This document shows, piece after piece, positions 1,481-35,532 of a DNA stretch of 64,000 nt. Under the pieces are notes generated by a model. It did no database searches and was not told where the DNA came from. It saw only the letters and a program-made list of their open reading frames with translations. The stretch is taken from contig NZ_JARXYP010000002.1 of assembly GCF_029893805.1 (NCBI RefSeq), positions 248,001 through 312,000 on the forward strand, given 5' to 3'. The DNA comes from Streptomyces sp. SAI-135. Its GTDB lineage: Bacteria; Actinomycetota; Actinomycetes; Streptomycetales; Streptomycetaceae. A program made the translations under genes and the position numbers. Within the stretch, counting starts at the first letter, position 1. Each line of letters opens with the position of its first letter.

Positions 1481-1691
1481 TCTCCGCCCGTGCAGCGCGT
1501 CCCTCCGTAGGCGGTCTCCTGTTGGGATGACGCGAATGACGTCTCGCTTCGTACAACCAGTCCGTGCACAGCACCTTCCACGGCTGCGGACCCAGCCACG
1601 CACAAGCGCTACACAAAAGGTGCTACAAAATATCTAGAAATATGCAGTCGGCATCTATGGGGCGCTCGGTTACCCGCTCGCGCCCCCACAG

Positions 1692-1749
1692 AAATGGGAA
1701 CGTTGGCGGTGACCTGGGAAGACAACCCAGAGCTCAAAATGGGAACGTT
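1692..1749. repeat. Direct repeat of AAATGGGAACGTT in an intergenic region
   Basis: The 13-mer AAATGGGAACGTT occurs at 1692-1704 and 1737-1749. The second copy extends into the perfect palindrome GGAACGTTCC. The repeats lie in the roughly 290-bp gene-free stretch 1617-1908 upstream of the gene at 1909, so they could be regulator sites for it. Nothing else is evident in that stretch. Confidence 0.45.
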
Positions 1750-1908
1750 CCGAAACCGACCCTCATTCCCTCCGTCGCTTCCCTCAAGTACGCCTCGTTG
1801 AGCATCCTTTGATCAAGCGTCATGAGTGTCCGGGGTAGCGGACTCAACGGAAGCGAAGCCGCAAAGTGAAGCCGCCTTGCGCGAGTACGGAACAGAGGAA
1901 CGGAAGCG

Positions 1909-2295
1909 GTGTCCCAACATCTGAGGCTCGTCGTCATGCTCGCGACGTGTGGTCTGGTCACGTTCACCGCCCTGACGGTCACTCTGTTAGTGATGGGCGT
2001 AAACCCGACTTTGATCGGCCCGCTCATCCTGGCGATCGTGGTGGGCGTGAATCATCTCCTCCAGTCCATCACCACCAGCAGCAGGGACGTGTCTCAGTCC
2101 GAGGGCAGCTCCGCGAGCCGCAAGGCTCTGAGAGAAGAGACGGAGCAGCAGGAGGCTCAGATCCCAGGCCACCCGCGTACGACGCATGGGGTCGTCAGGA
2201 GCGAGCCGGAGGGCCCCGGCATACCGGAAGACAGTCGGATCGGCCCATGTAACGCACAAGACGGTCTCCCCCACCACACGCCCCCGGAGCGCTAG
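1909..2295 (+). CDS. Small hypothetical membrane protein
   Basis: This 128-residue protein starts at GTG behind GAGGAACGGAAG. Two hydrophobic helices occupy about residues 7-28 and 33-52. A hydrophilic, acidic and proline-containing cytoplasmic-type tail of about 75 residues follows. No enzymatic motif is visible. It ends exactly where the next gene begins (stop at 2295, ATG at 2296), so the two are probably co-transcribed and coupled. The spacing suggests a joint membrane-associated role with the 275-residue protein downstream. I do not recognise the family. Confidence 0.6.
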   Translation: MSQHLRLVVMLATCGLVTFTALTVTLLVMGVNPTLIGPLILAIVVGVNHLLQSITTSSRDVSQSEGSSASRKALREETEQQEAQIPGHPRTTHGVVRSEPEGPGIPEDSRIGPCNAQDGLPHHTPPER

Positions 2296-3123
2296 ATGGC
2301 AGGTCCGCCCCTCGGAGCTATGCGCGAGGGCATCTCCCCCGCACACCAGTTCTGGCTCGACCTGATTCGCGGTCACGTCCGGTTGGCCAATCTCAGTTGT
2401 CAGGACATTGCAGAAAAGGCGAAATGCTGTCACGGGGCACAGGTTTTTGCTCACAAAGGGAAGGTGTCTGACTTCCTCCGCGCAGTTCCGAAGAGGCACC
2501 CCAACTGGAAGTATGTGTTCGCGGTCCAGCAGATCCTGGGATCGTCGGTAGTGTCCAGAGAAGTCCTCGCCCGGCTTTGGGCCGACGGCGCCCGTAGTGA
2601 CAACAGAGACGGCAAGTGGATTGCGCGATCGTTCCGTGACGTCAGGCTCTGGTCACCCGAAACAAGTGAGGTCGAGCAGGAGTTCCTGACGAAGTATCCG
2701 GCGAAGCCCACGCGGGCCGGCGCAGCCGCGGGCGGTCTGGCTGCTGTCCTGCTCGCGACGAGTGTTGCTGGTTTCGCATACTTCGACCGGCATCAACCTG
2801 ACCCGCCTCCCCGCAACATCCGCATGTACATCCAACCGGAGACGGTCGGCAACACCCTCGGGCTCCAGAGGGTCACTTTGCACCAGGATCTGGCGGTCGA
2901 ACTGCCAGGCTCCGAGGAGGCGGCATACATCAGGCGAGGAGAGACCATCTACCTGGGCTGCTTCCGCCCGGACAACACCTTCGGGATCGCCGGCACGCCT
3001 GCCAGCGTAGGCACGCAAGCACTTGCCCGCGCCGGAGTACCTGACTCCGACTGGTACTTCACGAAGTGTCAAGGCCCCTTCGTCACGCCCTCCAGCGACT
3101 CCCACTCCCAGGAGGCGAAGTAG
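2296..3123 (+). CDS. Hypothetical single-pass membrane protein with a basic, possibly regulatory N-terminal domain
   Basis: The 275-residue product begins at ATG directly after the upstream stop. Residues about 15-100 form a cytoplasmic domain with helix-rich text such as AHQFWLDLIRGHVRLANLS and DIAEKAKCCHGAQV. It resembles the XRE-like N-terminus seen in other actinobacterial membrane proteins, but no clear helix-turn-helix can be fixed. A basic patch is followed by one membrane helix at about 140-163 (AAAGGLAAVLLATSVAGFAY). Residues 165-275 would then lie outside, with two cysteines (LGCFRPDN and FTKCQGP) that could pair. The topology suggests a signal-sensing protein. The function is unknown. 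Confidence 0.6.
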   Translation: MAGPPLGAMREGISPAHQFWLDLIRGHVRLANLSCQDIAEKAKCCHGAQVFAHKGKVSDFLRAVPKRHPNWKYVFAVQQILGSSVVSREVLARLWADGARSDNRDGKWIARSFRDVRLWSPETSEVEQEFLTKYPAKPTRAGAAAGGLAAVLLATSVAGFAYFDRHQPDPPPRNIRMYIQPETVGNTLGLQRVTLHQDLAVELPGSEEAAYIRRGETIYLGCFRPDNTFGIAGTPASVGTQALARAGVPDSDWYFTKCQGPFVTPSSDSHSQEAK

Positions 3124-3382
3124 GAGGGCAGACACAAGGCAGCCAAGGAGCAGGAAGGGGAAGCTGGAGCGCCGGCCGGCCCGGGGGCGTGGAGTACGCG
3201 AGCACCCTGCCGCACACCGAGGAGGCCCTGCAGCAGGCAGAGACCGTCGCCCTGGCCGAGCGGCTGCAGCGGCCCGCCGACGCCCGCCCCGAGCGCTGGT
3301 CCATGAGACCAGCTCGTCGTCGACACCACGACAGCGAGATCATGACCAGTCTGCTCCCTGCAGCATCAGGGAGAGGTATCCC

Positions 3383-3932
3383 CTACGCCTGGCGGAAGAG
3401 TGGTGGGAGCAGGCCCTCGCCCGGCCACAACTCCTGCTCGGCAACCAGAGAGCTGACAAACACATCGACCTCGGCCAGGACAGCGGCGCGCTCCCCGGGT
3501 CGGTAGGTGATGTCCTGGCCGGCGGCGCCGACGGCGCGTACCTGGCTGTCGGGGCCGGCGCAGACAAGGAGGCGTCCGATCTCGGGCAGGCCGAGGCTGA
3601 AGGCGTCGCACCCCCCGTTCGGATCAGACCCACCAGGTCGGCGATGACGGTCTGCCAGTCGCCGACCCACGGCCAGCCAGCACCGCCATCCAGTTCACGG
3701 GTAAGCGTGGCCAGCGGAACGATCTCACCCGGCTTGCGCCCCTGGGTGAGGCACTCACGGATGCGGGCGCCGTCGGGCTGTCGTACCCGGGGATGGAGCA
3801 GCGACGCGGACGAGACGACGGCGGTGTTGATCTCCTGGGTACGTGGGGATAGTACGGCTCGTGCGCGAACAGCAGGTAGGTGTCGGTGGAACGGGCTGCG
3901 CCGTCATTCTTGCTCGGGGGCATGGGCGGCAT
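3383..3932 (-). pseudogene. Frameshifted hypothetical protein of a plasmid-like cluster
   Basis: A good start exists at ATG 3932 behind GGAAGGGA. The protein-like track runs STDTYLLFAHEPYYPHVP in the first frame. It continues as EINTAVVSSASLLHPRV, then GWPWVGDWQTVIADLVGL, in a second frame. It ends as RLLVCAGPDSQVRAVGAAGQ, then VLAEVDVFVSSLV, in a third. The shifts fall at a CCCAGGAG stretch near 3840 and at a run of six C (3611-3616). Both are classic indel sites, so decay or sequencing error are equally possible. The family is not recognised. The start lies inside the 3' end of the membrane-protein gene at 3755-4825, suggesting one transcription unit. Confidence 0.55.
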
Positions 3933-4825
3933 TCCCTTCCATTCTGAGGTGCCGGGCGCGGAGGAAGGTGCTGGCCCGGTCGCTGGTTCGAAGCCGTGCG
4001 GGAGCGGCCGCCTGAAGCGAAGCTCCTGCGGGGCTGATCGGCCTCGCCGGTGGCCGAGTGGGTGCGGGTGCGCTCAAAGAGCGGGGCTACTTGGTCGGCG
4101 AGTTGGACCATCAGCCGTTCCCTGTCGATGAGGCGAGGCGGGGCCGTGCGGATGTCGTGGCTGTGGAGGAGGCCGGCGGCATCCCACAGCAGGTTGTGGC
4201 CGATCTCAGCCGAGCGGCGCACCTCGTAGCGGTTGCTGCCGGCGGCGGCCTGAAGGAGGCAGGTGTGCAGGGCGGCGAGTCGCTGCAGGTACTGGCAGGC
4301 GGCGTCTGCTTCGACGATGCGGACGTGTTCGCGGGCCCGGGCGGCGAACTGACCGGGCAAGTACTGCGTGAGCAGCGGGGCCAGCAGCGCCGCGGGCACC
4401 GTGACACTCAAGGGGACGCCGTGGCTGAGGGCGAACAGGCCGATCATGACGCTGATGAGGGCGATGGCGGCGGTCGACAGGCGCAGGGATCCGGGGACGG
4501 TGTCCGCGGCGAGGTGTCTGGCGGGGCGCCGGGTCAGCCAGCGCGCGGCCAGGCGCTGGGCGCGGGTCGCTCCCGGGGTGAGCACGCCGATCTGGTGGGG
4601 GATTTCGGGCTGGCTTCCGTCGGCGGGGACGGTCCAGGTGAGCCACCCCCATGAGGTGCGTTCGTGGATGAGGACGAGTTCGCAGGCGGCCGTACAGGTG
4701 TGGCCGCGGACGTGGCCGGTACGCAGGGCGCGGTTGCTTTTCCTTCTCCACCGGCCCGGGTCGTGGGTGAAGGGGCGTGGGTGGTGTGCGGCCGCGGCCG
4801 GCGGCGGTGTGCGGAGCGGTGTCAC
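3755..4825 (-). CDS. Hypothetical membrane protein coupled to the duplicated-HTH gene
   Basis: I place the start at GTG 4825, behind GGAAGGAAG, where it overlaps the stop of the upstream gene as GTGA. That gives 356 residues. Residues 40-110 form a soluble domain with CTAACELVLIHER and SWGWLTWTVP. Two membrane helices follow at about 116-135 and 138-155, then a helical domain (EHVRIVEADAACQYLQRLAA) to about residue 270. The last 80 or so residues are arginine/proline-rich. They overlap the next gene's start, so the true end may be earlier with an indel. The family resembles membrane proteins found beside replication genes on Streptomyces plasmids and integrative elements. The function is unknown. 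Confidence 0.65.
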   Translation of the reverse strand: MTPLRTPPPAAAAHHPRPFTHDPGRWRRKSNRALRTGHVRGHTCTAACELVLIHERTSWGWLTWTVPADGSQPEIPHQIGVLTPGATRAQRLAARWLTRRPARHLAADTVPGSLRLSTAAIALISVMIGLFALSHGVPLSVTVPAALLAPLLTQYLPGQFAARAREHVRIVEADAACQYLQRLAALHTCLLQAAAGSNRYEVRRSAEIGHNLLWDAAGLLHSHDIRTAPPRLIDRERLMVQLADQVAPLFERTRTHSATGEADQPRRSFASGGRSRTASNQRPGQHLPPRPAPQNGRECRPCPRARMTAQPVPPTPTCCSRTSRTIPTYPGDQHRRRLVRVAAPSPGTTARRRPHP

Positions 4826-6243
4826 GGGATGCTTCCTTCCAGGTGGTCGATGAACGCGCAGGCGCACGTGGTGCAGCGGCCGTCGCCGTCGGGGCGGGCG
4901 CGGCGGGGAGTCGGACCCGGGCAGGTACGGCATGGCGGCCAGCCCAGGCAGGCCGGACACAGGTCCTCGCCAGGGGCGGTTCCGGGCACGCCGCAGCCGG
5001 CACATTCGGTAAGGGCCCGGTAGGCCAGGGCCTCGCTCACCGTGCGCGCGGCCGAGGAGGTGGTCGAGCGCGGTGGCGGGTCCTGCCACGCGGAACCTTC
5101 GTGGTGGCCGGCCACGGTGGCGGGCGGCGGGTAGGCCCGGGCGGCACGCAGCCGGGCGGCGATGATCGCGCCGACAGTGGTGCGGACCGGGCTCGGCAGA
5201 GGGCGGTCGCTGATGACGTGCTGAAGCTGCGCGCGTGTCCAGCCGGCGTCCAGCATCGCGGTGACGGTGCGCCCCTGCTCGGCGAGGACCTGTCCGGTCA
5301 GCAGCAACTCGGGGTGCTGTGCGCCGATCGCCAGCAGCAGGCGGACGCCTGCATCGAGGTCCGCGGGCGCGGCCGGTGCCGTCCGTGGTGCCGACGGCGC
5401 TTCGCCGCGCAGTCGCGCTGCGCGGGCGCGGGGAGGGAGGGCTCTGGTGTTCTGCTTGTTGGTCTTCTTAACGATGGTGTTCTTAGTGCCGAGGGCAGCC
5501 AACGTAGGGTCATCCACTGGTGGAAAACCCGACTCTGGTCGTGGCCTCCTGTTGTGCAGGGCGGGTAGGTCGGTGATGACGTACGCGGCCGCGCCCAGGG
5601 TTCCGTCCTCTCCGCGCTCGCGTCCCCGGACGAGGAAGCCGTGCTGCTCCAGCTCCTTCAGCCCGCTCTTGACGGCTGACTCACCCTCGCGGCCCCGGCG
5701 GGCGATGTCGGTGACGGTCATCCGCCAGCCCTCCACGTGGGTGGAGAGCAGCCCGAACAATCCCTTGGCCTTGAAGGACAACTCGGGGGCCCGGAACAGG
5801 CCGTTGGCGACCTGGGTGAACTGGTCGGCCGCCATCACACCCCGGCGGATCCCCGCCACCAACCCGTTGGCGTGCCCGGCCTGCGCAGGCGCGATCACCC
5901 GGTCGGCTTCGACCAGCGTCATGTCCCAGGTGTCCGGGCGGTCGGTGATGCCGTAGACGACCTCGCCGAGGGTCCCGTCCGGGCGGCGCAGACGCTCACG
6001 GATCAGATAGCCGTGCGCCTCCAGCTCCTTCAGCCCGGCACGGACCGCTTCCCGCCCGTCCGGACCCAGGCGGACAAGACCGTCGACCGTCACCTGCCAG
6101 CCGTCGGCGTGCGTAGAGACGTACCCGAAAATCCCCTTGGCCTTGAAGCTGAGACGGCTGTCCCGGAACAGCGCGTTCGCGACCTGGGTGAACTGGTCGG
6201 CCGCCATGACGCCCCGGCGGATCCTTACCCCGAAGCGGCTCAC
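4822..6243 (-). CDS. Tandem winged-helix DNA-binding protein with C-terminal Cys-rich motif (replication-type HTH protein)
   Basis: The 473-residue protein contains two near-identical domains. Residues 8-105 and 132-230 both open with IRRGVMAADQFTQVAN and continue with LSFKAKG, a predicted recognition helix and a LKELE..G(Y/F)L wing. This resembles helix-turn-helix domains of phage and plasmid replisome-organiser proteins. A charged linker leads to a helical region (about 290-370). The C-terminus at about 412-473 is rich in CxxC pairs (CAGCG, CPAC, CRTC, CTTCAC) and probably binds zinc. The gene lies next to the TGCGCA/palindrome array upstream of it, so it is the natural candidate to bind that array. 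It is coupled by GTGA to the downstream membrane protein. The start could also be an internal ATG at residue 13. Confidence 0.7.
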   Translation of the reverse strand: MSRFGVRIRRGVMAADQFTQVANALFRDSRLSFKAKGIFGYVSTHADGWQVTVDGLVRLGPDGREAVRAGLKELEAHGYLIRERLRRPDGTLGEVVYGITDRPDTWDMTLVEADRVIAPAQAGHANGLVAGIRRGVMAADQFTQVANGLFRAPELSFKAKGLFGLLSTHVEGWRMTVTDIARRGREGESAVKSGLKELEQHGFLVRGRERGEDGTLGAAAYVITDLPALHNRRPRPESGFPPVDDPTLAALGTKNTIVKKTNKQNTRALPPRARAARLRGEAPSAPRTAPAAPADLDAGVRLLLAIGAQHPELLLTGQVLAEQGRTVTAMLDAGWTRAQLQHVISDRPLPSPVRTTVGAIIAARLRAARAYPPPATVAGHHEGSAWQDPPPRSTTSSAARTVSEALAYRALTECAGCGVPGTAPGEDLCPACLGWPPCRTCPGPTPRRARPDGDGRCTTCACAFIDHLEGSIP

Positions 6244-6441
6244 CGCCGTACCCCCGGCGCCGGCCCCGCACAGCGGCCACGGCAGCGCACCCGGCTCACC
6301 GCAGTGGGGCGGCCGGTGGTCCCGGGCGTTAAAGCGTGCAGGTGTTCCATGCCGTCAGCCCACCCGCCGACCCCGACCAGAGCGGCGACCACCAGCCCCG
6401 ACCAACGGTCACGATCCGACAACACAGCCCATCAAACGGCC

Positions 6442-7260
6442 ATGGTCGGGCTCATGGTCGGGCCGACCACAGCCTCCGGCCCCGCGCGCAATCGCATCGC
6501 CACCCCGATTGCGCAGCCCCCCGCGATGGTTGCGCAACCGGGCTGCGCAACCAGCCCGGGATCGTGCGCAATCGGGTGGTATTGAGCGGCTGCGCACTCC
6601 CCTCCTAGATCTCCGATCCGTCTGGTGCGCAGACCCGGGACGCTGCACTGCGCAGGCTCTGCTGCAGCCCCTGGCGGCGAGCGTCTGCGCACTGGTGTGG
6701 GGGCCGGTGGCCGTGCGGCAGGAAGGCCTCACCGCGCTCGCCGGCCGCGGGCCCCGTTGGGGGCCAGGATGCGCCGGTTCCCACTCGCGGCCGGCCCGTG
6801 GTCGGGCCCGTGGTCGGCCCGACCACGGGCCCGACCACGCACTTCGTGTCCCCATCGTCACCGTGACCCGGCCTGTGGTCGGCCCGACCACGCGCCCTCA
6901 TCTGGACGCTGTGCGCGGTGCGCACCACCCGATTGCGCAGCGCCAGGCGGGCAGTTGCGCAACAAGGCTGCGCAACCCGCCGAGCAGCATGCGCAGTCAG
7001 GCGCCGTGCGGCTGCGCACTCCCCTCCTGAATCCTGGATCCCTCTGCCACACAGGTGCGCACGCCGCCCTGCGCAGGCGCCGATCGCGGCCCGGACCCGG
7101 CGGGACTGCGCACCGGCTCGGAGAGCCCAGAGACCACCCGGCCACCAGCCGCGCCACGGACTGCCCCGGCGGCCCGTCCCCGCACCGAATGCGCCGACCC
7201 CGGTAACCGTCCGGACCCTCACGGCGCACCCACAGTCCGGCCCGTGGTCGGCCCGACCAC
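6442..7260. repeat. Iteron-like array: 17 TGCGCA motifs in two duplicated blocks with GTGGTCGG palindromes
   Basis: The gene-free stretch 6244-7357 contains 17 TGCGCA sites between 6510 and 7112. They form two homologous blocks, about 6507-6657 and 6931-7078, with similar spacing (21/13/21/26/35/23 against 22/13/21/23/43/14 bp between starts). The blocks share an identical 21-nt stretch (6586-6606 and 7008-7028). Palindromes built from GTGGTCGG and CCGACCAC precede each block (6455-6469, 6875-6891) and follow the second (7244-7260). Candidates are a plasmid-type replication origin, a partition or transfer site, or an operator array. The adjacent duplicated winged-helix protein is the likely binder. 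Confidence 0.8.
6797..6839. repeat. 43-nt near-perfect nested palindrome
   Basis: Two 21-bp arms are perfect reverse complements around a single central base (6818). Each arm contains two GTGGTCGG half-sites, so the element is a palindrome of palindromes. It sits between the two TGCGCA blocks. It could extrude as a cruciform or hold several dimers of a regulator. Confidence 0.85.
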
Positions 7261-7357
7261 GACCCCGACCACGCACTCCATAACCCCAGGACCACGACCG
7301 GGCCTCCACGGTCAGTGGTCGGGGCGGGGCCCGCGGGTCTCCTCAAGGTCATCGACC

Positions 7358-7714
7358 ATGCCCCCTGCCAAGCAGGCCCCGGAAGGCGAGACTGCTGCTC
7401 CGATGGCGGCAGGCGCCCGGCTGGAGGCGATGCGGCGCCGCGTGCGTCTGTCCCGCCTTGCCCTCTGGACCGTCATCGCGGCCGGCCCCGCCGCCCTCGC
7501 CGTCACCGTCGCGTTCACCCCGACCACGGTCGAGGCGGCCACCACGGCCACACCCACAGCGGTCGCCGCCGACGCGGCCGGCTATGCCCAGCTGTTCATC
7601 CACGCGTGGCTGCACAGCAGCGCGGACGACGCCTCGAGTGCCCGGGCCAGGCTTGCGCAGTCGATACGACTCAGCGACACCGTACTCTCGAATCATGAGC
7701 GCCAACTTCGGTGA
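7358..7714 (+). pseudogene. Truncated conjugal transfer (TcpC-like) protein
   Basis: The N-terminal 100 or so residues are intact. They comprise a short charged cytoplasmic segment, a membrane helix at about 32-52 (LALWTVIAAGPAALAVTVAF), and the start of a periplasmic domain (AAGYAQLFIHAWL, DDASSARARLAQS). This matches the start of TcpC-like conjugal transfer proteins of actinobacterial mobile elements, which are about three times longer. The match breaks near base 7662, and the frame runs on only into the next gene's start region. The rest of the transfer module is absent, so this looks like a deletion end-point of a mobile element. Confidence 0.6.
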
Positions 7715-8873
7715 ACGGCTCCGCGAGATCCGCAAGCGTCGGGGCCTGAGCCAGCGTGAGTTGTCCCAGAACTCAGGCGTCTCCCTCTCTCTTATCCGCA
7801 AGTTGGAGCAGGGAGAGCGGGAAGACACACGCTTGGAAACAGCCCGGCAACTCGCCAGTGCCCTCAAGGTACCCACCACGCGGCTGGTCGCGGAGCACGC
7901 CGAGGAACCTGCCGACGCTGCCACTGTGGAACGTTGGGCACCCGTTCACGCGGTCCTCGCGGCACCCGCGCAGCGTGATGAGCTTGAGGAAGCACCCACC
8001 GTTACAGGAGTCCGAGACGCCCTTCAGGCGGCTGTTCCCCTCTTCGCGCACGACCGCTTCGTAGAACTCGGCACTGCCCTGCCGTCCCTCCTGCGTGACG
8101 CGGAGGCACTCACAGCAATCGATCCGCGCGGTCGACCGCTTCGCGCCAGACTTCTCGAACTCACCGGTTGGCTGATGACCCAGACTCGGCAGTTCGACGC
8201 CGCAGAAATGGCCCTTGCCCGGGCCCTGGACGACGCCACCGACCGCATTCAAGGGGCCTCTACCGTCAACACGCAGTGTTGGCTTCTCCTTCGCAGAGGG
8301 AAACTCGCCGACGCGCGCAAACTGGCCGCTCAGTGGGCCGATGACGTCGAACCGCGCATGTCCAGAGCCACGCCCGCCGAATTGAGCACCTGGGGTTGGC
8401 TATTGCTGCGCCTATCCGCAGCGGCCGTCCGTGACAACCGCTCCGGTGAAGCCGAGGATGCACTACGTCTCGCCCATTCGGCCGCCGTCGCGCTAGGACG
8501 CGAGTGCACACCCGAAGGCGACTTTCTCCGCACCTTTGGCCCCATCACGGTGGCCTTGAAGCGCACAGAGAATGCCATGGTGGCCGGACAGCCCGACAAG
8601 GTGCTCACACTTGCCTCGCACATCCCCGCGGACAGCCTCAAACCAAGCTCTAATAACCGAAATCGCCACCTGCTCGATGTGGCCAATGCTCACACGCAAC
8701 AGCGGCAGTATGCGGAGGCCGTCGACATCTTCAACAAGATCCGCGCCGGTTCGCCTCAGTGGCTTCCGAACCAGCGGTACGCCCGCGACATCCTTGCCAA
8801 CATCGTGGGAAAACGCCGGACCTTGACGCCCGATATGCGGGAACTGGCAGACCTGGTGGCTCTGCCCGTGTGA
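7695..8873 (+). CDS. XRE-family transcriptional regulator with TPR-like C-terminus
   Basis: Starting at ATG 7695, the protein has 392 residues. Residues 5-41 hold an XRE helix-turn-helix (LREIRKRRGLSQRELSQ, then SLSLIRKLEQGE). A linker leads to about 280 residues of helical repeats (DAAEMALARALDDA, LADARKLAAQWADD, YAEAVDIFNKIR) typical of TPR-containing Streptomyces regulators. Such proteins often control neighbouring small genes in response to peptides or ligands. The gene sits right after the truncated conjugation gene, so its promoter region may have been recombined. It heads a run of co-oriented genes ending with the phosphotransferase at 10067. Confidence 0.8.
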   Translation: MSANFGERLREIRKRRGLSQRELSQNSGVSLSLIRKLEQGEREDTRLETARQLASALKVPTTRLVAEHAEEPADAATVERWAPVHAVLAAPAQRDELEEAPTVTGVRDALQAAVPLFAHDRFVELGTALPSLLRDAEALTAIDPRGRPLRARLLELTGWLMTQTRQFDAAEMALARALDDATDRIQGASTVNTQCWLLLRRGKLADARKLAAQWADDVEPRMSRATPAELSTWGWLLLRLSAAAVRDNRSGEAEDALRLAHSAAVALGRECTPEGDFLRTFGPITVALKRTENAMVAGQPDKVLTLASHIPADSLKPSSNNRNRHLLDVANAHTQQRQYAEAVDIFNKIRAGSPQWLPNQRYARDILANIVGKRRTLTPDMRELADLVALPV

Positions 8874-29800: not shown

Positions 29801-30583
29801 ATGAACGGCACCATGACGGTCATCGACAGGGACGCGGTGCGCATCCACAGCTACATGGCCCCCGATGACAGCCTGAACGTCACCACGCAGCTGATCGAGA
29901 CCCCGGCGCGACTGATCGCCGTGGACGCCCAGTACACCCTGTCGTACGCCGACGAGGTCGTCGCCTACGCGCGCGGCCTCGGCAAGCCACTGGACCGGGT
30001 GATCATCACCCACGCCCACCCGGACCACTTCCACGGCGCCGCCCGCTTCGGCGCCCCCGTGCACGCGCTGGCCGCGGTACGCGAGCAGATCGCCGCCCAG
30101 GGCGACGGCCAGGACCCCACCGGTGCCGTGATCCCGGTCGCCGACATCACGCCGACCATAGACGTGGCACCGGGCACCGAGGTCATCGACGGCATCCCAT
30201 TCGTCTTCGAGGCCCATCACGGCGGCGAGGCCCCGGACCAGCTGGCGATCAAGCTTCCCGAGCAGGGCGTCCTGGTGGCCCAAGACCTCGTCTACCACGC
30301 CACCCACCTCTTCCTCGGCAACAACGACATTCCCGGGTGGACCAAGGCCGTCGAACAGCTCGCCGCCGACCCCGCCTACGACACCGTCCTGCCCGGCCAC
30401 GGCCTGCCCGCCGGCCCCGAGGTCTTCGACCAGCTGCGCCGCTACCTCACCGACGCGGCCGAGCTGCTCGGCGACGACGGCGAGGCGTACAAGCGGGCCA
30501 TCACGGCGCGCCATACCGGCTTCGGCGGCACGTTCCTGATCGACATCGGCAACCAGTACCTCTTCGGTACCGACAACACCTGA
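29801..30583 (+). CDS. Metallo-beta-lactamase-fold hydrolase
   Basis: ATG 29801 gives 260 residues. The metal motif HAHPDH (HxHxDH, residues 71-76) is followed by the later ligands in LVAQDLVYHATH and LPGHG. It belongs to the large glyoxalase II/lactonase/quorum-quenching-like group. The substrate is not defined by these motifs. The next gene starts 29 bp downstream, giving an operon with an NAD(P)-binding protein under the divergent AraC regulator. Such operons often detoxify reactive carbonyls or lactones. Confidence 0.8.
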   Translation: MNGTMTVIDRDAVRIHSYMAPDDSLNVTTQLIETPARLIAVDAQYTLSYADEVVAYARGLGKPLDRVIITHAHPDHFHGAARFGAPVHALAAVREQIAAQGDGQDPTGAVIPVADITPTIDVAPGTEVIDGIPFVFEAHHGGEAPDQLAIKLPEQGVLVAQDLVYHATHLFLGNNDIPGWTKAVEQLAADPAYDTVLPGHGLPAGPEVFDQLRRYLTDAAELLGDDGEAYKRAITARHTGFGGTFLIDIGNQYLFGTDNT

Positions 30584-31932: not shown

Positions 31933-32360
31933 CGAGAAGGCCCTTCAGAGGCCATGGAACGTCTCTCCACTGGTCGGCCCGTCCGTGAACACCGCCCTGC
32001 GCGAGAAGATCACCCAACGCTCAGCCGTCGTCATCCCGCTCGACCGAGCACACGCCACACCCCACACGCGAGTTGCTCGTCGACTGGGACAACCACGTCA
32101 GCCAGAGCGCGGCAAGCAAACACGACCAGGCCCAGGCCGCGGAGGGACCGCCCGCCTCCGCCGCCAACTGCGAGACAAGCAACACGAACGACAACGACTC
32201 CCAGACGAAGTCGACTGCCCACGGTCATCGCGGCCCTGCTCGCGGATGAAAGTGACTCGGAGCCAGCCTGGGGCCGACGGACGACATGATGAGGCGAGAC
32301 TGAACGCCCCCGGAATCCCGCCGGCACCGTGTCGGGGCACCAAGGCGCGTGGTAGCTTCC
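31933..32360. other. Degenerate stretch before the GntR gene
   Basis: No complete gene is supported. Plus-strand scraps such as SVNTALREKITQRSAVVIP (about 31985) and ELLVDWDNHVSQSAASKHD (about 32070) look protein-like but are in different frames and lack starts. They are probably further remnants. Confidence 0.25.
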
Positions 32361-32377
32361 GTATACAAGGTGTATGC
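32361..32377. promoter_or_regulatory. GntR operator at its own gene
   Basis: GTATACAAGGTGTATGC matches the site at 35593-35609 at 14 of 17 positions, keeping GTATACA and GTATGC. It lies just upstream of the chosen GntR start and would overlap the alternative ATG at 32374, which supports the later GTG start and autoregulation. Confidence 0.7.
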
Positions 32378-32394
32378 GAGAGCTGGGGGCTGCC

Positions 32395-34164: not shown

Positions 34165-35532
34165 TCAGAAGCGGGTGGGGGTGGCGTCCGCCGCCTGGGG
34201 CACCGTGGGCGCGGCGAGGGCGGCGTCCTCGTCGACGGCGGCCTCGGGGCCGCGCCCCAGACAGACGCCGACGAGTGAGACGGCGCAGGCGAGGGCGATG
34301 TACACGGCCAGCGGAGCCCAGGTGCCGTAGGCGCTCAGCAGGGTGGTGAACAGCAGCGGGGCGACGGCGCCGCCGATGATCCCGGCCAGGGTGTAGGCCA
34401 GCGACGAGCCGGTGTAGCGCAGCCGGGGCGCGAACTGTTCGGCGATGAAGGCGGCCTGCGGACCGTACAGACAACAGTGGATCACCAGGCCCACGACGAC
34501 CCCCGTGGCGAGCGGCAGCCAGGTGCCGCCACCGATCATCGGGAAGAACACGAAGGGCCACACACCGGCGGCCAGTGCGGCACCGCCGTACAGCAGACGG
34601 CGGTCGACCCGGTCGGAGAGAGCGCCGGCCAGCGGCATCAGGAAGACCTGGATCGAGGAGCCGATGAGCACGGCCGCGAGGGCGGAGCCGCGTGACATGC
34701 CGAGCTCCTGGGTGGCATACGTCAGGACGAAGACGGTGAACATGGCGTACAGCACATCGGGGCCGACGCGGCAGAGGATGGCGGCGAGCAGGGCGCGGGG
34801 CTGAGTGGTGAACACCTCGCGGATGGGTGCCTGCGGCCGGGAGTGCTCGGCCTCCAACGCCTTGAACACCGGGGTCTCCTCCAGCTTCGCCCGGATCCAC
34901 AGCCCGAACGCGACGAGAACGCCGGAGAACAGGAACGCCACCCGCCAGCCCCACGTCTCGAACTGCGCCTCGGTCAGCAGCGCCCCGAGGGCGGCAAGTA
35001 CGCCATTGGCCAGCAGGTTTCCGGCGGGCGGACCGACCTGCGCGGCGGAGGCGTAGAAGCCGCGCCGACGCGGGTCCCCGAACTCGCTGGACAGCAGGAC
35101 GGCCCCGCCCCACTCGCCGCCGACGCCGACGCCCTGAGCGAAGCGCAGCACGACCAGGGCGATCGGGGTGGCCACGCCGGCCGTGGAGTACGCGGGCAGG
35201 ACGCCGATCAGGAACGTGGCCACACCGATCAGGACCAGCGTGGCGATCAGCACCTTCTTTCGGCCGATCACATCACCGAGGCGGCCGAACACGAAGCCGC
35301 CCAGCGGGCGCGAGACATAGCCGACCGCATAGGTGGAGAACGCCAGGAGCGTGCCGGTGAGCGGGTCCTGGGAGGGGAAGAACAGGTCACCGAAGACCAG
35401 AGCGGCCGCGGCGGAGTAGACGGCGAAGTCGTACCACTCGAGGGCGGTGCCGGTCAGGCTCGCGACGAAGGCCCGGCGGACGCCGGCGCGCCGATCGGAC
35501 GCCTGGGCGTCGTCCTTCGGGGCGTTGGACAT
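34165..35532 (-). CDS. MFS transporter, metabolite:H+ symporter (MHS) type
   Basis: Using ATG 35532 gives 455 residues (ATG 35541 would add three). Twelve helices can be traced. The first loop has ALEWYDFAVYSAAAALVF, and the conserved loop GRLGDVIGRKKVLI fits the MHS family, as does RFAQGVGVGGEWGGAVLL. Such proteins import organic acids, betaines or related compounds with protons. It is the first gene of the operon and probably supplies the amide substrate. The GntR operator lies 60 bp upstream. Confidence 0.85.
   Translation of the reverse strand: MSNAPKDDAQASDRRAGVRRAFVASLTGTALEWYDFAVYSAAAALVFGDLFFPSQDPLTGTLLAFSTYAVGYVSRPLGGFVFGRLGDVIGRKKVLIATLVLIGVATFLIGVLPAYSTAGVATPIALVVLRFAQGVGVGGEWGGAVLLSSEFGDPRRRGFYASAAQVGPPAGNLLANGVLAALGALLTEAQFETWGWRVAFLFSGVLVAFGLWIRAKLEETPVFKALEAEHSRPQAPIREVFTTQPRALLAAILCRVGPDVLYAMFTVFVLTYATQELGMSRGSALAAVLIGSSIQVFLMPLAGALSDRVDRRLLYGGAALAAGVWPFVFFPMIGGGTWLPLATGVVVGLVIHCCLYGPQAAFIAEQFAPRLRYTGSSLAYTLAGIIGGAVAPLLFTTLLSAYGTWAPLAVYIALACAVSLVGVCLGRGPEAAVDEDAALAAPTVPQAADATPTRF

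Follow-up and report, generated by a model that had tools for sequence, protein, structure and literature searches.

A TGCGCA array in a Streptomyces chromosome arm as a candidate cis element of linear-plasmid conjugation operons

What role does a dense array of palindromic TGCGCA hexamers play in non-coding Streptomyces DNA, beside a gene for a DNA-binding protein? The array was found in a window of 64 kb, by which we mean the whole stretch of DNA analysed, corresponding to bases 248,001-312,000 of a 9.29-Mb contig in an assembly with one other contig, of 1.08 Mb. Considering the size of the contig and the position of the window in it, the locus lies on a chromosome arm, some 250 kb inward of the contig end. 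A sequence-only reading of this stretch had offered an origin formed with the neighbouring gene, a partition site, a transfer site or a multi-site operator. As argued below, the last two appear from sequence comparison to be the best readings.

The array and its chromosomal setting

By exact count, 17 perfect TGCGCA sites lie within 603 bp (6510-7112), in agreement with the earlier count of 17 in about 600 bp where fewer than one would be expected. A local first-order model of positions 6244-7357 averaged 0.6 sites and never exceeded 5 over 5000 runs; any other 603-bp stretch of the window contains at most two. For the 4.1-kb locus around the array, 19 sites were counted against 2.3 expected (maximum of 7 in 200 shuffles), and the window as a whole has 48, where dinucleotide shuffling yields 27.3 ± 5.5. 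As had been stated before, the array stretch was found to be free of coding sequence, and most relatives have no annotated gene there. Rfam searches for a structured RNA at the array gave sub-threshold matches only.

The sites fall into two blocks (Table 1). Positions 6440-6845 and 6861-7280 are 76% identical over 388 aligned bases, with the site variants in the same order, which bears out the homology that the sequence-only reading had seen; the block size of about 150 bp given there does not hold, the tandemly duplicated unit being about 405-420 bp long. Palindromes of the type GTGGTCGG/CCGACCAC, previously described as preceding each block, are indeed present, but they flank each array on both sides. 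The element matching P' of block 1 is strongly conserved in an alignment of 35 relatives, and the spacing of block 1 is near-identical in a plasmid relative (W01). Elsewhere on the same chromosome arm, a GTGGTCGG-type palindrome resembling the array flank is found 3 kb to the left of the window (G000:C2:245007-245044; L046 near 17012), and a further flank-like stretch lies near the contig end (C2:7359-7427).

Table 1. Features of the array locus in the window
Feature	Position	Strand	Remark
Second gene of the winged-helix unit, hypothetical protein	3392..4726	-	in-frame stops from 3755 on
Winged-helix protein gene, 473 aa, two tandem HTH_36-type domains, Cys-rich C-terminus	4822..6243	-	intact
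Palindrome cluster P' (ATGGTCGG..ATGGTCGGgCCGACCAC)	6442..6470	.	block 1, winged-helix-gene side
Array block 1, eight TGCGCA: 6510, 6531, 6544, 6565, 6591, 6626, 6649, 6686	6510..6691	.	
Palindrome cluster P (GTGGTCGGgccCGTGGTCGGcCCGACCACgggCCCGACCAC)	6798..6838	.	block 1, tcpC side
Palindrome P' of block 2 (GTGGTCGGcCCGACCAC)	6875..6891	.	
Array block 2, nine TGCGCA: 6919, 6934, 6956, 6969, 6990, 7013, 7056, 7070, 7107	6919..7112	.	
Palindrome cluster P of block 2	7244..7272	.	adjoins tcpC start
Truncated tcpC, first gene of plasmid conjugation operon	7358..7714	+	homology stops near 7666
Lone TGCGCA remaining from intragenic tcpC array, codons CTT GCG CAG	7654..7659	.	

On one side the array abuts the gene of a winged-helix protein with an 85% identical plasmid homologue. 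It matches Pfam HTH_36 (E 1.9e-6), and its best matches are phage DNA-binding, replication-initiation and DnaD-like PHROG families (PHROG 4707, E 2.5e-31), so that the gene does resemble replication initiators of phage type in its two winged-helix domains, in line with the earlier description as a replication-type DNA-binding gene. The AlphaFold model contains two helix-helix-helix-beta-beta units and has a mean pLDDT of 57; its confidence is low except in the two domains and in part of the C-terminal half. A fold search with this low-confidence model gave generic winged-helix matches and nothing with E < 0.001, and a sequence search of the PDB returned no useful match. The second gene of the unit aligns at 51% over 447 aa with gene 2 of L007 (tblastn).

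On the other side, the stretch runs up to the start codon (7358) of a truncated tcpC, which the sequence-only reading had missed. Its product is 66% identical to L007 TcpC over residues 1-109, at 7358-7666 (tblastn). The complete operon, consisting of tcpC, two small genes and a VirB4-like ATPase gene, is absent from the window; about 100 tcpC codons are left, the conserved leader ahead of the start codon is shortened according to the leader alignment, and an unrelated XRE-type regulator gene (7695-8873) follows the cut. A distant TcpC query detected no other TcpC of this family in the genome. Despite the lost operon, the cut tcpC and the broken second gene, the 17 upstream sites have all stayed intact. 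In the simplest reading, the window copy is what remains, in duplicated form, of a linear plasmid within the chromosome arm, and the array would be an orphaned, duplicated part of a control or transfer element of plasmid DNA-transfer genes. Given the loss of the operon, the array could at most act there on the winged-helix gene or titrate a binding protein. A possible similar remnant, with a broken winged-helix frame, a short tcpC piece and six sites, occurs in Streptomyces sp. NRRL S-455 (L108).

Conservation of the array and the gene it accompanies

The sequence-only reading had named a lack of conservation next to winged-helix gene homologues as a ground for refutation. Of 25 Streptomyces plasmids with matches to the region, 8 match over most of its length, and 5-13 sites lie between the winged-helix gene and the divergent tcpC in 42 of 43 compact loci; the array is conserved, and the element therefore stands. 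A scan of one genome per species yielded 68 loci. Winged-helix relatives with at least 80% length coverage occur on 19 plasmid records, each of at least 100 kb, and those examined are linear with one exception (PLSDB gene tables are incomplete). In the annotated plasmids examined the gene order is constant: the winged-helix and second genes run one way, followed by the array, and the tcpC operon runs the other way, with tcpC (PF12642), two small genes, the VirB4-like ATPase, a coupling protein, further transfer genes and a Tad pilus. The plasmid operon carries the corresponding domains (PF12642, E 2.6e-15; AAA_10, E 1.3e-38), and the module is complete on the plasmids.

Across 35 relatives, hexamer columns are 91% identical to the reference, compared with 57% for the spacers, in a comparison that used the reference's own sites and so favours the hexamers. 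The sequences by both divergent start codons, including the GTGGTCGG palindromes, are strongly conserved as well. On Streptomyces plasmids the array is thus conserved as a cis element. Two further observations concern the same region. In L007 (7292-7340) and the 35 aligned relatives, a conserved inverted repeat, AGGTCAG...CTGACCT, immediately precedes the start codon within the tcpC leader; it is lost in the window and may be an RNA hairpin or an operator. In S. pilosus, two winged-helix loci with arrays (L068 and L106) lie about 25 kb apart on one 153-kb contig (NZ_BMTU01000017.1).

In the clade of L009 and L019, most sites read TGTGCA in place of TGCGCA (L009 also has two blocks), a CpG-to-TpG change that would fit a methylation switch: a cytosine methyltransferase, often encoded nearby, would act on TGCGCA, and the methylation state of the site would control the region. 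DNA cytosine methyltransferase genes do occur near the locus on several plasmids. The matches among loci are, however, few and divergent, mostly with 25-39% identity to that of W01, and none was noticed in passing near the window array; we therefore set aside this candidate, whose gene is not conserved, as very improbable.

The array can be assigned to one of its two neighbours where these have been separated. Among 18 loci in which tcpC and the winged-helix gene are more than 1.1 kb apart, four or more sites lie no farther than 600 bp from tcpC in 16, including two (L057 and L083) with arrays at both genes; in the other two (L096 and L105), the array lies beside the winged-helix gene instead. 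TcpC homologues of about 45-52% identity (L122, L124 and L125) carry 4-8 upstream sites and 6-9 intragenic ones. One of these is on W13 (L124), a complete plasmid with the array and no winged-helix homologue anywhere, and another is on W11 (L122), where the winged-helix gene is present as a C-terminal remnant only. TcpC searches of 61 genomes, a less biased sample, revealed a complete single-contig genome (G049) in which tcpC carries 8 + 6 sites and a winged-helix homologue is absent. These patterns indicate that the array is independent of the neighbouring winged-helix gene and follows tcpC.

The winged-helix protein as initiator of an iteron-type replication origin was the first candidate considered, and its domains do match phage replication-initiation families. 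The repeat array adjoins this initiator-like gene, and the two are kept together at compact loci, in a manner reminiscent of the theta plasmids pWTY27, pFP1 and pFP11 of Streptomyces, where rep genes lie beside a repeat-rich, non-coding iteron region (PMC3583192). Unlike those loci, the TGCGCA array tracks tcpC, lacks the hallmarks of an origin and has sites inside transfer genes. It is present without the winged-helix gene on W13 and in G049, stays by tcpC at most of the separated loci rather than being inherited jointly with that gene, and recurs within the codons of tcpC, Replic_Relax and spdB. No DnaA-box-like match was found in the intergenic DNA of the window or of L007, and neither has an AT-rich stretch (lowest 60-bp G+C of 60% and 55%, respectively); GC-skew on W01 and W05 had no clear switch at the array. 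Moreover, array and gene are chromosomal in the window genome, and related copies share a contig in S. pilosus. The arrays without the gene, their persistence by tcpC and their intragenic recurrence make a replication origin unlikely; lowered further by the missing hallmarks, this part of the earlier reading is one that we consider improbable. It is thus very probable that the element belongs to the transfer module and not to replication.

The association with tcpC has its own limits. The TGCGCA array is missing at other distant tcpC operons (L123, L126, L166 and L171-L175), and two plasmids, W12 and W15, carry a related operon without it, so the array is not essential to every such operon. 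At L126 (NZ_CP109170.1), a different array of about 15 copies of ACCGGTCAC / CGTGACCG occupies the place of the TGCGCA array before the distant tcpC (locus positions 2979-4055). On plasmid pI of S. mirabilis (L186, NZ_CP074103.1), clusters totalling 17 copies of CCCTTGACC/GGTCAAGGG at 1539-4938 surround a gene with the annotation ScpB and precede tcpC.

A second array inside tcpC and further arrays on plasmids

The same hexamer recurs within the coding sequence of tcpC. In 58 tcpC genes, nine TGCGCA positions were identified in codons 70-149, a span of about 235 bp, each of them filled in 43-57 genes, which together with the upstream array gives about 17 sites per locus. The density of TGCGCA in this stretch is 27 per kb, compared with 0.24 per kb in the rest of tcpC and 0.58 per kb in virB4. 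Where the last base of a codon begins a site, the codon ends in T in 325 of 347 cases (94%), compared with 1221 of 15268 (8%) elsewhere in the tcpC genes, the counts being of sequences and not of independent events. The codons TAT, CTT, AGT and GCT are minority codons in these genes, yet they are near-invariable at the site columns. Among the TcpC proteins the median identity is 71% and the lowest value 51%, a divergence that has left silent positions ample time to change. This codon use shows that the intragenic hexamers are held by selection at the DNA level; on dozens of plasmids, a protein-coding sequence has clearly been bent to bear a second message. In the window, besides the lone site in Table 1, three recognisable former intragenic sites have been altered (TATGCCCAG, CTGCACAGC and AGTGCCCGG).

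To our knowledge, the combination of a long array in the codons of a secretion-system gene with an upstream repeat has not been described, although its parts are of kinds already known: operator arrays, clt loci and protein sites that fall within coding sequence (sps, for example; PMC4170104). The sps sites of pIJ101, inside spdA2 and bound by SpdA2, are likewise short, plasmid-conserved palindromic sites in coding sequence. They differ in being 12-bp palindromes in two or three copies, located in or just upstream of the gene for their own binding protein and affecting stability (PMC4170104). Identity with sps was rejected, since these palindromes match SRDD/E codons and no TGCGCA occurs in PMC4170104. 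A full-text literature search for TGCGCA and Streptomyces returned seven papers, and judging by title none deals with plasmids.

Further arrays are found on several plasmids. W01, W02, W07 and W13 have an extra cluster at the far end of the Tad-pilus genes, where it surrounds the 3' terminus of an spdB-like gene (DUF2637) and a small DUF3846-like gene; W13 also has an array within the first codons of Replic_Relax. In the stretches scanned of these four plasmids, every cluster of at least four sites is located at tcpC, at the spdB/small gene or at Replic_Relax, and on the complete plasmids W01, W05, W13 and W14 all such clusters are at transfer-module genes.

This distribution bears on the proposal of a centromere-like partition site, in which a partition protein would bind a static repeat array. 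Static binding to repeat arrays is known in some systems, namely type I with RHH-type ParB and types II and III (PMC13245405), and one array on W02 lies about 2 kb from parA/parB. That is the only plasmid on which arrays were found near parAB; elsewhere they follow transfer genes, the annotated ParB gene of W01 is 30 kb from the nearest array, and the arrays inside tcpC would be left unexplained. Identity with parS of SCP1 can be ruled out, as this consists of 13-19 bp inverted repeats around par operons and not of arrays (PMC13245405). A partition role, which had been on the earlier list, is accordingly highly doubtful.

A possible operator or transfer locus

The array in the window corresponds to the upstream half of a paired cis element at the conjugation operon of giant linear plasmids of Streptomyces. 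About eight sites lie upstream of tcpC and about nine in codons 70-149, so the operon promoter is likely to lie between two arrays. The reading that we favour, albeit tentatively, is that the paired arrays may act on the transfer operon as a multi-site operator or silencer. One DNA-binding protein, for which the adjacent winged-helix protein alone probably does not account, would occupy in many copies the palindromic sites on either side of the tcpC promoter, and the bound arrays would form a cooperative or looped complex across it that silences the transfer genes until transfer is wanted. The separate GTGGTCGG/CCGACCAC elements by both divergent start codons could be the sites of a second regulator. 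A comparison of gene content between array-bearing and array-free plasmids (W12 and W15 in part) gave no single candidate for the binding protein.

The operator is favoured because several transfer genes bear arrays and because the sites have no direction: they flank the start of the tcpC operon and recur at the spdB/small gene (W01, W02, W07 and W13) and at Replic_Relax (W13), as expected of an operator. Several observations do not sit easily with it. Part of the spdB-side array overlaps a gene at its 3' end, nine sites within codons 70-149 of tcpC are unusual for a simple operator, TGCGCA cassettes on W04 are located elsewhere, at the 3' ends of unrelated genes, and the operons of W12 and W15 have no array. 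Nor would an operator predict 17 intact sites in the window without the operon, unless the loss is recent or the winged-helix gene is still controlled.

Ranking a close second is a clt- or oriT-like cis-acting transfer locus, in which the paired arrays would be a platform for assembling a coupling ATPase or relaxosome protein before conjugation. Described Streptomyces transfer relies on a single FtsK-like protein and a clt site. For the start and control of TcpC/VirB4-type conjugation on giant Streptomyces linear plasmids, the cited literature holds no account. In Streptomyces, known clt loci contain several short repeats, direct or inverted, and may extend into tra codons; that of pWTY27 comprises 16 bp within traA and 159 bp beside it (PMC3583192). 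The TGCGCA element is similar in being repeat-rich, in tracking the transfer module rather than the winged-helix gene, and in lying both beside and partly inside a transfer gene, and different repeats, ACCGGTCAC in L126 and CCCTTGACC on pI, stand upstream of distant tcpC operons. As a candidate transfer site it differs from the pWTY27 clt in its palindromic hexamers, in their number per locus and in the length of its intragenic array. Whereas the pWTY27 clt, like other described clt loci, serves an FtsK-like TraB (TraB/TraA), the array stands at a T4SS-like operon with VirB4 and TcpC. Neither a nick site nor a relaxase gene was placed beside the array, and several array loci per plasmid with palindromic, non-directional sites would suit a regulon better than one transfer origin. 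We regard a transfer locus as possible but rather unlikely.

The operator and the transfer locus could be joined in a broader conjecture, for which the sequence evidence makes a possible rather than a probable case: as a hitherto undescribed type of cis element, a lattice of palindromic protein sites in the codons of a secretion-system gene, together with the upstream repeat, would carry one nucleoprotein complex that silences or launches linear-plasmid transfer. The module at which the array stands is the TcpC/VirB4 module of giant linear plasmids (SCP1.146 relatives; pI, PMC9195940), with the TGCGCA array at the operon start. Plasmid pI, which is conjugative with demonstrated transfer to S. 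lividans (PMC9195940), has the same order of tcpC, two small genes and an ATP-binding protein, but lacks TGCGCA arrays and has CCCTTGACC clusters instead. With its sites defined to the base, the element offers a concrete, conserved DNA handle on the control of giant-plasmid conjugation, and the intragenic array can be recoded with the TcpC protein unchanged.

The W04 cassettes (NZ_CP108236.1) lie at 30158-30196, 32346-32384, 34215-34283, 532691-532735 and 532868-532928. As a dispersed 3'-end element, each spans about 39-50 bp and contains three TGCGCA, and three of them begin about 5 bp past the stop codons of unrelated genes.
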